Assembly: GCF_009676955.1 (NCBI RefSeq) | Contig: NZ_CP045696.1 | Location: 310,001-374,000 of the forward strand | Length of the DNA: 64,000 bases | Direction of reading: 5' to 3' | Origin: Sodaliphilus pleomorphus | Lineage (GTDB): Bacteria; Bacteroidota; Bacteroidia; Bacteroidales; Muribaculaceae | Part shown: one piece after another, positions 4,666-46,353 of the stretch | Numbering within the stretch: position 1 is the first letter of the stretch | Layout: each line of letters begins with the position of its first letter | Notes under the pieces: model-generated | Seen by the model: only the letters and a program-made list of their open reading frames with translations | Database searches by the model: none | Told to the model about the DNA's origin: nothing | Translations under genes and position numbers: made by a program

Positions 4666-5639
4666 ATCGAGTAGGAGGTAAACACTAATCATAGGGTGCT
4701 TATCTCCTATTTTCGTGTTTACCGACCTCTCACACCACCGTACGTGCCGTTCGGCATACGGCGGTTCTTAACGCGGGTGCTTTTTCTCGTAATATTCCGT
4801 AAGCGTGGGATAGTGCGCTCGTTTCAAGTTCTCATTGGATATAGCACGTGTAAGTATGGGGCTATGGACGGTGCGCCAATAGCCTTTTCGGGTATTTGCC
4901 CACTGCCATGCCTGCCATTTGGCGATGCCACATCTTTGTAGGTTCTTGAAGCGTGTCCGCACTCGTTTCCAGCATTTCCATATACACATGCGTATGCGAC
5001 TACGCAACCATTCATCGGTTTCCCTTAGAAAGTTGCGCATCTCGGCAAGCCGAAAGTAGTTCACCCACCCTCGGATTGCATAGGTCAGTTTCTCCTTGCG
5101 CTTCTCGTAGCCCCAGCCGTTACTGCGCGATGGCAGTTCTTTCAACTTTGTGCGCAGTTTGGCTTTGGTCTTCGGATGAACGCACAAGCGAGCCTTTCCT
5201 CTTCACATATTGAACGAGTAGCCGAGGAACTTCTGTCCGTGGACACTGCCGACATGCGTTTTCTCGCGGTTTACTTTGAGGAAGAGTTTCCTCTCTATGA
5301 ACTTCGCTATACTTTCGCATACTTCTGTGGGTTCGTTGTTACTGCTTGCCTTGCGGCTCGCCCCACAGACCTCCCCGATTAAGAACATAATCTTTCAGTC
5401 TTATACTCCCTTGATTTACTCACGTCAGTCCGGATAACTATCGGGCTTTGGTTTGTTTAGCAACCTTACCCCTGACTTTGAGCCTTGTATCAAGTTTCTG
5501 CGCGTGGAGCCAGACTTTTGTCCTTAGCTTCCTTCCGATTCTCCTCGCGGTGGACACCGTTGCATCGGACTATGCGCTTCCCGCTATCGGGGCACGCTCG
5601 GGACTTGCACCCATTAGATTATGCCCATGTCGGGCGAAC
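4666..5639 (-). mobile_element. Degenerate group II intron (class C-like), copy 1, with most of the RT deleted
   Basis: Minus-strand element of about 974 bases. Its 5' end (GTTCGCCCGACATGGG, complement of bases up to 5639) and its 3' end (domain V hairpin GCCGTATGCC-GAAC-GGCACGTACGGT, then domain VI and a CTACTCGATT terminus near 4666) are nearly identical to those of the copy at 45020-46353. The 5' end directly follows the T-tract of the rplT terminator, as class C introns do. Between the RNA ends only the end of the RT domain and the maturase X domain remain; the 5' part of the coding region up to the YADD region is gone. Boundaries were set by comparing the two copies. Confidence 0.85.
4768..5322 (-). 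pseudogene. Group II intron maturase, C-terminal remnant
   Basis: Reading from 5322 down, the frame gives the end of an RT domain (ESIAKFIERKLFLKVNREKT, then GQKFLGYSF) and, after an in-frame TGA at 5203-5205, continues in the same frame into the group II maturase X domain (HPKTKAKLRTKL, then GWVNYFRLAEM and RMCIWKCWKRVRTR), ending YYEKKHPR. The start codon, RT domains 0-5 and the YADD catalytic motif are missing. It cannot encode an active RT, although the 139-residue X-domain fragment could be translated from the methionine at 5187. Confidence 0.85.
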
Positions 5640-9253: not shown

Positions 9254-9273
9254 ATACCTTAATTAAATTACTC

Positions 9274-9330
9274 GTGCCCTACAACGGCACTGTTACACAT
9301 ATTGTAGTTGCGGTGCCCTACAATGGCACC
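9274..9330 (-). promoter_or_regulatory. thrS leader: tandem tRNA-Thr anticodon-arm mimics
   Basis: On the minus strand two hairpins occur between promoter and start codon. The distal one (9330-9312) is GGTGCC-ATTGTAG-GGCACC; the proximal one (9290-9274) is GTGCC-GTTGTAG-GGCAC. Each loop has seven bases, with T at position 33, TGT at 34-36 and A at 37, which is the layout of a tRNA-Thr(UGU) anticodon loop. E. coli thrS is autoregulated by ThrRS binding two anticodon-like operator domains; by analogy this leader is probably a ThrRS operator. The role is inferred; the hairpins are seen directly. Confidence 0.72.
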
Positions 9331-9357
9331 CGTCACTATCTCGTCGCTAACAAGGTG

Positions 9358-9388
9358 CAAAGTTACTGCAAGTTGTGAGCAATACAAA
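9358..9388 (-). promoter_or_regulatory. Promoter of thrS
   Basis: On the minus strand TTTG (9388-9385), a 19-base spacer and TAACTTTG (9365-9358) match the Bacteroidetes primary sigma consensus exactly. The predicted transcript starts near 9351 and gives a leader of about 100 bases containing both anticodon mimics. Confidence 0.82.
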
Positions 9389-9411: not shown

Positions 9412-9444
9412 AAAAAAAAGACCCATCCGCAGTCACTGCGGATG
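9412..9444 (-). terminator. Terminator of the 979-residue secreted protein gene
   Basis: Arms CATCCGCAG and CTGCGGATG with a 3-base loop, followed on the minus strand by eight T residues. It lies upstream of the thrS promoter and downstream of the gene ending at 9540. Confidence 0.88.
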
Positions 9445-38343: not shown

Positions 38344-40010
38344 AACCACTTGGACTAACAATGTGCACAATGTTGCTGGCACTGTCGTGGGCATCAACAG
38401 CACTTGCCATTCCTGCTCAGCGCCTTTGGCGCACTCACAAGCAGAGCGATGGCAAGGAGATAACCTATATGCTGTGCGGTGATGAGCACTGCCACTATTA
38501 CATGTCGGCCGACAGTTTTGTACTAAAGCGAAATCCCACAAATGGCGACTTTGAGTATTTGCAACGCAATCAGCAACGAGTGAGGCCGGCAGAAATGAGG
38601 AATGCAAAGCCAATACAGCAGTCCATTCAGAACCGGACTCGCAAAACTGCCTACACTGGAAAGAAAAAAGGACTCTTCATCCTCGTTGAATTCGACGACA
38701 TCAAGTTTTCCAGGGCCGACATCAAAGCTGTATACGACAGCATCTGTAACATGAAAGGCTATCATACAAGACCGTTTGTGGGCTCTGTCCACGACTACTT
38801 CCTCGAGCAGAGCGACGGCAAGTTTGACTTGACCTTCGATGTCGTAGGACCAGTGACAATGTCGAAAAGCGAGAGCTATTATGGTTCAAATTCAAGTTGG
38901 GGCATTGACGTAAATATCTCTGAAATGGTGCTCGAGACATTGAACCTGGTCAAGGACTCGGTCGATTTCTCTCAATACGATTGGAATGGCGACAGCATAG
39001 TCGATCAGGTGTTCCTACTCTATGCCGGCTATGGAGAGGCGCAATATGGACCAGAGTGGACTATATGGCCATGCGAAGGAAAGTTGTCTAATTTTGCAGG
39101 CATGACGTCGCTGCCTCAATATAACGGAATGACCATCAACACCTTTGCTTGCTCTTGCGAGCTACACTCAAACAAAGGGAGCCAACTCGATGGCATAGGT
39201 ACAATCTGCCACGAGTTCAGCCACTGCATGGGATTTCCAGATTTCTACAACACATCTGACATGACAGACTTCTGCATGGATGCATTTGAGCTTATGGACC
39301 AAGGGGCCTACAATGGCAGTTCCTACTGTCCGGCTGCCTATACAGGATATGAGCGATGGATGTGTGGATGGCGAGAACCTGTGGAGTTGAAAGACACTTG
39401 CACGATTGCCGGTTGGCAGCCACTCGTGAGTGGCGGCGAAACGTACATACTATATAATGAAGCCAATCGCAATGAGTATTACTTCATTGACAATCGCGAA
39501 CGTGTGGGGTTCGACAACGGGCTCTACAGCACCGGTCTTGTGGCTGTACACGTGGACTACGATGCCGACGCATGGAGCAACAACACAGTGAATGCCGACA
39601 AGAAACACAAGCGGATGACGCTTCTTCCTGCCGACGGGCTCTATGATTGGAAAACTGCCGACACCGACGCTTGGCCCTACACCTACATGAACGGACAACG
39701 CACTCTCGACTCGCTGACTGACAACAGCAGGCCGTATCCCACACTGTTCAATAAGAACTACGACGGGTCGCATCTGCTCCATAAACCTATCTACAAGATA
39801 AGGAAGAACGAGGATATGACCATGGACTTTGTTTTCGGCCATAATCCAGTCTCTGCCGGCATCAGGGAAACACCGTCGGCGGCAGCAGAGCGTAGAGATG
39901 ACTATATCTACGATCTGGAGGGACGACGTATTCTTTTGGACAAGGATCAGTTGCGGCGCGGGATCTATATTGTAAATGGCAAAAAAATCATTATTAATGG
40001 TCATGAATAA
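38340..40010 (+). CDS. M6 family secreted metallopeptidase (second copy)
   Basis: 556-residue paralogue of the preceding gene. Signal peptide MKPLGLTMCTMLLALSWASTALA; LCGDEHCHYYMSADSF; SVHDYFLEQSDGKFDLTFDVVGPV; DWNGDSIVDQVFLLYAGYGEA; zinc motif HEFSHCMGFPD (near 290) with ELMDQGAYN. The tail YDLEGRRILLDKDQLRRG then IYIVNGKK is a classic sorting-type C-terminus. Shared order and motifs show a tandem duplication with considerable divergence. Overlaps both neighbours, indicating one transcript with coupled translation. Confidence 0.93.
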   Translation: MKPLGLTMCTMLLALSWASTALAIPAQRLWRTHKQSDGKEITYMLCGDEHCHYYMSADSFVLKRNPTNGDFEYLQRNQQRVRPAEMRNAKPIQQSIQNRTRKTAYTGKKKGLFILVEFDDIKFSRADIKAVYDSICNMKGYHTRPFVGSVHDYFLEQSDGKFDLTFDVVGPVTMSKSESYYGSNSSWGIDVNISEMVLETLNLVKDSVDFSQYDWNGDSIVDQVFLLYAGYGEAQYGPEWTIWPCEGKLSNFAGMTSLPQYNGMTINTFACSCELHSNKGSQLDGIGTICHEFSHCMGFPDFYNTSDMTDFCMDAFELMDQGAYNGSSYCPAAYTGYERWMCGWREPVELKDTCTIAGWQPLVSGGETYILYNEANRNEYYFIDNRERVGFDNGLYSTGLVAVHVDYDADAWSNNTVNADKKHKRMTLLPADGLYDWKTADTDAWPYTYMNGQRTLDSLTDNSRPYPTLFNKNYDGSHLLHKPIYKIRKNEDMTMDFVFGHNPVSAGIRETPSAAAERRDDYIYDLEGRRILLDKDQLRRGIYIVNGKKIIINGHE

Positions 40011-45019: not shown

Positions 45020-46353
45020 ATCGAGTAGGAGGTAAACACTAATCATAGGGTGTTTATCTCCTATTTTCGTGTTTACCGACCTCTCACACCACCGTACGTG
45101 CCGTTCGGCATACGGCGGTTCTTAACGCGGGTGCTTTTTCTCGTAATATTCCGTAAGCGTGGGATAGTCCGCGCCTTTCAAGTTCTCGGTCGAGTTCCGT
45201 CAGCATTATGTTGCTCAGTATGGGACTGAGCGGTCCGCCCTGTGGCACGCCCTCCGTTGTGTCCTCATACTTGTGTCCGACCATTACTCCTGCGTTGAGA
45301 TACTTGTGTATCAGTGATATGACCCTGCCATCTTTGATGGTTTCGCCAAGTAGCTGTATCAATTTGCTATGGCTGACCGTGTCAAAGAACTTTTCGAGGT
45401 CAAGGTCTACGCAGTATTTATATCCGCTGTTGATGATTTCCTGCGCCTTTCGCAGTGCTTGGTGCGCGCTCCGTCTCGGTCGGAAGCCGTAGCTTGTCTC
45501 CGAGAACTTCGGTCCGTACACCAGACTCAGAACCTGGGATATGGATTGCTGGATTACGCGGTCAACCACGGTGGGTATGCCGAGCTGGCGCCTCTTGCCT
45601 CCTTCTTTGGGTATCTCTACCCTCCTTACGGGATTGGGGCGGTAGCTTCCGCCGAGCAGACTTTCAGTTATTTCTTCCTTGTGTTCCCGCAGATATGGCA
45701 GCAGTTGCTCTACTTCCATTCTGTCGATTCCACCGCTCCCCTTGTTAGCCTTGACTTGTTTATATGCTCTGTTAAGGTTGTCGGGAGTGAGGATGTACTC
45801 CAACATCCTGTCTGACGATAGTTGCACTTCTACGAGTTCGTCTCCAACTATCCCAATCAAAGTAGGCGCTCCCTCATACCTTTCGCTTTCCGAGCTATTC
45901 TTCCGAGGGCAGCTTTCTGTTGTTTTCGGCTTTTCTCCTTTCATCGGGTAAATAAAGTTTTGCTCGTGTGGTTAAGTTTTGCCCTTCGTCTCCGCCCACG
46001 AGCTTTAAGGCGTTGACTACTATGGCATCTGCTGACTTCTGTGGGTTCGTTGTTACTGCTTGCCTTGCGGCTCGCCCCACAGACATCCCCGATTAAGAAC
46101 ATAATCTTTCAGTCTTATACTCCCTTGATTTACTCGCGTCAGTCCGGATAGCTATCGGGCTTTGGTTTGTTTTGCAACCTTACCCCTGACTTTGAGCCTT
46201 GTATCAAGTTTCTGTGCGTGGAGCCAGACTTTTGTCCTTAGCTTCCTTCCGATTCTCCTCGCGGTCGACACCGTTGCTTCGGACTATGCGCTTCCCGCTA
46301 TCGGGGCACGCTCGGGACTTGCACCCATTAGATTATGCCCATGTCGGGCGAAC
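45020..46353 (-). mobile_element. Degenerate group II intron (class C-like), copy 2, with the maturase end deleted
   Basis: About 1334 bases. The 5' region (down to about 46035) and the 3' region (domains V and VI, 45020-45187) are nearly identical to those of the copy at 4666-5639. The 5' end follows the T-tract of the hairpin at 46360-46390. Inside, the start of the RT gene is retained but everything from after RT domain 5 (before the YADD) to the last few codons is deleted. The deletion joint lies in GAGAACTTGAAA, a string that occurs at both ends of the missing part. Confidence 0.85.
45084..45944 (-). pseudogene. Group II intron reverse transcriptase, N-terminal fragment
   Basis: 286 codons. 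The first 256 or so encode an RT start: MLEYILTPDNLNRAYKQVKANKGSGGIDRM, RRVEIPKEGGKRRQLGIPTVVDRVIQQ, FSETSYGFRPRRSAHQALR, CVDLDLEKFFDTVSHSKL (first catalytic Asp) and GVPQGGPLSPILSNIMLTELDRELERRG. After this the frame jumps to the 3' end of the intron ORF in the wrong frame (LSHAYGILREKAPALR) and stops inside domain V. The YADD motif, the rest of the palm, thumb and X domains are missing. Style of the N-terminus matches bacterial class C intron RTs. Confidence 0.88.

Follow-up and report, generated by a model that had tools for sequence, protein, structure and literature searches.

How does Sodaliphilus pleomorphus match the amount of its threonyl-tRNA synthetase (ThrRS) to need? In this work we have analysed a stretch of 64,000 nucleotides of its genome, here called the window, in which thrS is preceded by a leader of about 100 nt carrying two small hairpins with threonine anticodons in their loops. 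The initial annotation took them for mimics of the tRNA-Thr anticodon loop and compared them with E. coli. There, according to PMC7373986 and PMC11088916, ThrRS binds two anticodon-like hairpins in the leader, blocks binding of the 30S subunit and is in competition there with tRNA-Thr; an anticodon swap switches thrS regulation to MetRS. From conservation, covariation and this precedent we infer that the leader hairpins are probably an operator at which ThrRS represses the translation of its own mRNA. The features of the locus are collected in Table 1.

Table 1. The thrS locus and its leader in Sodaliphilus pleomorphus (window positions)
Feature	Position	Strand	Basis
thrS, threonyl-tRNA synthetase, 648 aa	7307..9253	-	ORF and alignment to 1qf6_A / 1nyq_A
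A/T-rich stretch, 20 nt, from hairpin 2 to the start codon	9254..9273	-	sequence
Hairpin 2 (start-proximal), GTGCC-GTTGTAG-GGCAC	9274..9290	-	counterparts in genus and family
Hairpin 2 loop: G32 U33 UGU(34-36) A37 G38	9279..9285	-	sequence, compared with tRNA-Thr loops
Inter-hairpin linker, 21 nt, contains CTACAAT	9291..9311	-	sequence
Hairpin 1 (5'), GGTGCC-ATTGTAG-GGCACC	9312..9330	-	within the family, window species only
Hairpin 1 loop: A32 U33 UGU(34-36) A37 G38	9318..9324	-	sequence
Putative -7 promoter box TAnnTTTG (TAACTTTG)	9358..9365	-	sequence, resemblance to consensus
Putative -33 element TTTG	9385..9388	-	sequence, resemblance to consensus

The window ThrRS aligns over residues 4-635 with chain 1qf6_A, which we take to be the E. 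coli structure, and over residues 2-632 with 1nyq_A; both chains bear the name threonyl-tRNA synthetase. Judged by these alignments the protein is a full-length homolog, N- and C-terminal regions included. Both hairpins lie between a putative promoter and the ATG of thrS, as had been claimed, with the threonine anticodon in register in the loop; the promoter call of thrS rests on TAnnTTTG and TTTG, taken as the -7 and -33 consensus. The presence upstream of the -7 box of a terminator-like hairpin with a T-run, recognized by eye at about 9412-9444, makes it probable that thrS is transcribed from a start of its own. The only resemblance to a Shine-Dalgarno sequence in the stretch from hairpin 2 to the ATG is AAGG, 3 nt before the ATG. 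The minimum-energy fold of the leader contains both hairpins; the stability of the leader as a whole is not above that of shuffles (z -0.63), which counts against an operator. In the linker, CTACAAT exactly complements loop 1 over its full 7 bases and loop 2 over 6. It is possible, going by this complementarity, that it forms a pseudoknot or serves as an anti-anticodon in the window species only, and no relative shares it. As for the surroundings, the frames downstream of thrS resemble infC and rplT by eye. Two similar groups of Rfam group II intron matches are found in the window at 4666-5554 and 45020-46268 (-); a frame at 4768-5187 in the first group resembles a maturase by eye.

Do the loops imitate a tRNA which this bacterium possesses? 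The tRNA-Thr loops of the window genome, taken from genes near the best 30 of 52 tRNA matches, read TTTGTAA (UGU), TTCGTAA (CGU) and TTGGTAA (GGU). It follows that both mimics equal tRNA-Thr(UGU) at positions 33-37 and differ from it at 32 and 38. The genome's own tRNA loops thus bear out the description of two hairpins whose 7-base loops show U33-UGU-A37; the dissimilar positions 32 and 38 count against an operator. Such loops are rare in the window: N-TTGTA-N on a stem of at least 5 pairs occurs three times on both strands of the 64 kb, and two of the three are the thrS leader hairpins. The third, CTTAT-cttgtag-ATAGG at 39791 (-), has a weak stem and is probably due to chance. When a covariance model of the hairpin was run on the 3.34-Mb window genome, with 100 of the 484 first-look candidates scored, two matches were obtained at E <= 0.1, namely the two leader hairpins, both of which belong to the set from which the model was built.

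If the hairpins are an operator, are they kept in relatives? For thrS and the stretches upstream of it we drew on 61 genomes of the genus, 79 of the family, 148 of the phylum and 80 named loci; in the end, 56 of 63 genus genomes and 72 of 75 genomes from other genera of the family contributed a leader. In four genus genomes (G009, G037, G044, G059) the thrS match was split after about residue 51-75, through an assembly error or a real frameshift. By a relaxed rule (stem of at least 4 pairs, no shuffle control, background gauged from phylum leaders), 53 of 56 genus genomes, and 41 of 72 genomes from other family genera, carry a hairpin with a threonine anticodon (NGU) ahead of the thrS start. 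As background, the rule accepted 8 of 122 leaders from the rest of the phylum, with the family and the Sphingobacteriaceae-like set described below excluded; on the named loci it gave 8 of 74, some of them likely real. By the same rule the hairpin is absent in 3 of 56 genus genomes (G005, G016, G038) and 31 of 72 genomes of other genera, and this counts against an operator. In the conserved cases position, covarying stem and NGU loop are all retained, as one would expect if the annotation of the window was right.

Chance, that is, short hairpins with a common loop, is scarcely credible as an explanation. An unfiltered scan for hairpins with U33 and A37 in 201 distinct leaders (of the first 207) found TGT in 66, CGT in 7 and the next triplet in 5. 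The 73 NGU leaders observed compare with a mean of 2.2 and a maximum of 6 in 30 rounds of dinucleotide shuffles of the 201 leaders. Some such hairpins are therefore to be expected, 2.2 per 201 shuffled leaders, with one more in the window at 39791; conservation, this shuffle comparison, a loop-blind test and covariation all speak against chance. In the loop-blind test, the strongest hairpin of each leader was taken whatever its loop. The genus gave NGU in 36 of the 37 that had a 7- or 8-base loop (55 leaders, the other 18 having loops of other lengths), other genera in 17 of 26 (71 leaders) and the Sphingobacteriaceae-like set in 18 of 20 (39 leaders). No U33...A37 hairpin with AGU or GGU was present among the 201 distinct leaders in the unfiltered scan; GGU is a real tRNA-Thr anticodon, and its lack among these mimics counts against an operator.

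The stems covary, as had been suggested for relatives. In an alignment of 54 of the 56 distinct family hairpins, two having been dropped by eye, each of the 8 pairs of the stem (8 of 8) shows two-sided changes in at least one sequence, and 88.4% of cells pair; the covariation score is 0.727, compared with 0.259 in shuffles and at most 0.179 with slid partners. For the subset of 32 sequences with 7-base loops the score is 0.666 against 0.285. The same kind of loop is found on stems as unlike as GTTGTGCT/GGCACAAC, TTGTCAC/GTGACAA and GGAGTC/GGCTCC. The expectation of an invariant TTGTA loop was borne out in part: the threonine anticodon is kept, while the triplet is not always UGU. Among 88 hairpins pre-filtered for a [UC]GU triplet, all 62 of 62 7-base loops carry UGU, a figure which is partly built in because of that filter and for which the loop-blind scan is the unfiltered check. 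The remaining 26 have 8-base loops, with CGU in 16 and UGU in 10, and C33 in 10 of 26, which counts against an operator. Across the material position 34 varies (UGU, CGU, and AGU in three credited Sphingobacteriaceae-like leaders) and G35-U36 are constant.

Could the hairpin simply protect the mRNA? A generic stabilizer of the 5' end against RNases, with a loop that is incidental or reflects a preference for stable loops, would be expected close to the transcript start. A TAnnTTTG box precedes the hairpin by 6-28 nt (in one case 45) in 79 of the 84 hairpin-bearing family leaders, and the 78 of 84 within 6-28 nt of this promoter-like box fit such a stabilizer. We nevertheless consider it improbable: the stems change with compensation and the loop keeps the Thr anticodon, and a hairpin with a like loop sits on the start codon in two other lineages. 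About as little chance is given to another RNA-binding protein, or a small RNA, reading the loop in place of ThrRS. The loop is mainly what is conserved, and any reader of the loop would produce this pattern. Variation at position 34 with G35-U36 unchanged is what a reader of tRNA-Thr would lead one to expect, less so a small RNA that pairs with the loop; moreover, the occurrences of the element within the family are mainly at thrS.

This last point comes from the covariance model (R1), which was built as the annotation had proposed and run on other genomes. In 26 of 79 family genomes it made 31 matches at E <= 0.1, of which 24 are at thrS leaders, partly by construction because the model was built from such leaders. 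More telling is that only seven family matches turned up away from thrS, all of them within open frames that run for 297 to 862 codons from stop to stop. Among 198 genomes of the order five matches reached E <= 0.05; one was the window's own, and around the other four the stretch that was fetched contained no thrS. With the window's own as the single thrS match in the order, the model does not detect the element outside the family; this, like the restriction of its matches to 26 of 79 family genomes, counts against an operator. Further regulon members were dropped as candidates, in view of the seven family matches within long frames and the four order matches lacking a nearby thrS.

The pair of hairpins is a different matter from the hairpin itself. 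Two credible NGU hairpins occur in the window leader alone among 128 family leaders, relatives carrying one; the candidates L219 and L398 were not credited, their stems being A/T-rich and far upstream. Family-wide use of two hairpins is thereby ruled out, and the lack of conservation of the window's layout within the family counts against an operator. The arrangement first described, in which two hairpins would serve a dimeric ThrRS, fits the window species and Sphingobacteriaceae-like genomes; since the window has the only pair among the 128 leaders, two sites for the ThrRS dimer do not fit the family.

The Sphingobacteriaceae-like set comprises 39 leaders, that of Pedobacter montanisoli (L152) and those of 38 of the 39 genomes that gave a match. 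The family of genome G217 is taken to be Sphingobacteriaceae because P. montanisoli shares its leader type and clusters with it in the tree of ThrRS proteins. In 32 of the 39 leaders a hairpin has the start codon within its 3' arm (mean 0.18, maximum 2 in 100 shuffles), the commonest form being AATCAT-AGUUGUAG-AUGAUU; in L365, which has a GTG start, the pairing is maintained. An additional upstream hairpin, typically AATCAC-UUUGUAU/G-GUGAUU, is carried by 26 of the 39, all with the start-codon hairpin as well, so that two anticodon-like domains per leader are a feature of these 26 and of the window and not of other family leaders. From the beginning of the upstream loop to the start codon the distance is 51-62 nt in 23 leaders and 81-85 nt in three. 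Its stem also covaries, with 6 of 6 pairs changing on both sides and a score of 0.441 against 0.134 shuffled, in an alignment (A3) where two rows misplaced by MAFFT were kept, which lowers the count. Its triplets are UGU in 16, CGU in 6 and AGU in 4. One of the AGU hairpins (L362) is an A/T run, was not credited and is left out of the 26 of 39.

In the Prevotella set (41 distinct leaders from 45 loci, representing 30 of 38 genomes with a match and 15 named loci, Hoylesella and Hallella included) the start-codon hairpin stands alone, with a stem of at least 5 pairs in 19 of 41 (shuffles: mean 0.05, maximum 2). Thirteen are CATAT-AUUGUAG-AUATG, one is the same with CGU, and five have other stems with U37; the CATAT type is nearly invariant and so yields no covariation. 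Elsewhere the start-codon hairpin is present in 3 of 67 other named loci and missing from all 124 leaders of the window's family and all 122 other leaders of the phylum. Hairpins similar to the upstream one occur at single named loci, in Porphyromonas (L130) and, with a 4-bp stem, in Paludibacter and its kin (L109, L114, L117). The element is absent from the leaders of Bacteroides congonensis (L110), Parabacteroides (L108, L115), Alistipes (L156, L159) and Odoribacter (L158). Its rarity beyond three lineages counts against an operator. When the hairpins are mapped on a tree of 213 ThrRS proteins made with FastTree, the upstream one requires 17 changes and the one at the start codon 14. These counts, suggestive of repeated gain or loss, are meant as illustration only, the labels being rule-made and error-prone and a shuffled control lacking.

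A separate observation concerns phylum families far from the window, in which thrS is directly preceded by a tRNA-Val(GAC) gene. ARAGORN identified tRNA-Val(GAC) in 22 of 22 leaders submitted, which had been picked for a visible tRNA; the carriers are L244, L257, L260, L264, L270, L273, L275, L278, L281, L282, L285-L288, L291 and L320-L326. By eye, a short hairpin with a T-run often follows the tRNA.

Could the leader act on transcription instead, as an attenuator or as a T-box-like sensor of tRNA? In favour of this reading, aminoacyl-tRNA synthetase genes of bacteria are also regulated by T-box leaders, a form of tRNA-related control. T-box RNA binds tRNA, whereas the thrS leader RNA resembles it. 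No Rfam family matches the leader (9254-9365) at gathering thresholds and neither hairpin is followed by a U-run; we set the T-box and the attenuator aside on these grounds and regard transcriptional control as very unlikely.

An operator for ThrRS finds its closest counterpart in E. coli. With the operator described there (PMC7373986 and PMC11088916), the Bacteroidota element shares its place in the leader of the same gene, hairpins with the Thr anticodon upstream of the start, a homologous ThrRS and the predicted logic of feedback. It differs in that the window's family usually has one hairpin, in that the triplet is mostly UGU here and CGU in the E. coli loops, and in that the start codon is inside the mimic stem in Sphingobacteriaceae-like and Prevotella genomes. 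The E. coli operator has four domains (I-IV), among them ribosome-binding domain I and linker III; the window leader is short, with 21 nt between its hairpins and 20 nt between hairpin 2 and the start codon. The best reading, an analogy, is that the Bacteroidota element would work like the E. coli operator, in different layouts and apparently recurrently; the likeness is one of logic. Yeast offers a further parallel. For HisRS, AspRS and ThrRS of yeast the synthetase binds a mimic of the anticodon stem-loop within an mRNA, as proposed here (PMC6542539 and PMC9956033). These are eukaryotic cases, in which the HisRS mimic is in coding sequence (PMC6542539) and ThrRS acts on RPC10 mRNA (PMC9956033).

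Has the element been described before? The annotation knew of no description in Bacteroidales. We too found no account of thrS leaders in Bacteroidota in titles and abstract openings of the open-access literature, coverage which leaves subscription journals mostly outside and does not establish absence from print. The words thrS and threonyl are both absent from the main text of PMC8040213 and from that of PMC2864571.

How, then, might the operator function? We propose that ThrRS free of tRNA would dock its anticodon-binding domain on the loop of a hairpin. Hairpin 2 ends 20 nt before the start codon, and bound ThrRS would cover the region where the 30S subunit lands, with the result that less ThrRS is made. 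Plentiful tRNA-Thr would compete ThrRS off the leader, and translation would resume. In the window species, the second hairpin may allow the dimer to bind one mRNA with both of its subunits. In Sphingobacteriaceae-like genomes and Prevotella, where the hairpin encloses the start codon, ThrRS is predicted to lock the AUG in the stem. We also lean, with less assurance, towards the view that such an operator was re-invented several times in Bacteroidota: as a start-codon clamp in Sphingobacteriaceae and Prevotella, with a second mimic in Sphingobacteriaceae, mostly some 45-55 nt upstream, that would serve the other dimer subunit, and as a mimic upstream of the start in the window's family.

Among bacteria, the classical example of tRNA mimicry by which a synthetase recognizes its own mRNA is the thrS operator of E. 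coli; to our knowledge few other bacterial synthetases act in this way. If our interpretation is true, the covarying element that carries the anticodon in three lineages of another phylum, with a different placement in each (upstream, on the start codon or both), would mean that this control evolves repeatedly. It makes one piece of translation control in Bacteroidota directly testable. The natural variants, with UGU, CGU and AGU triplets, 7- and 8-base loops and one or two sites, may then serve for reading the rules by which ThrRS recognizes its RNA.
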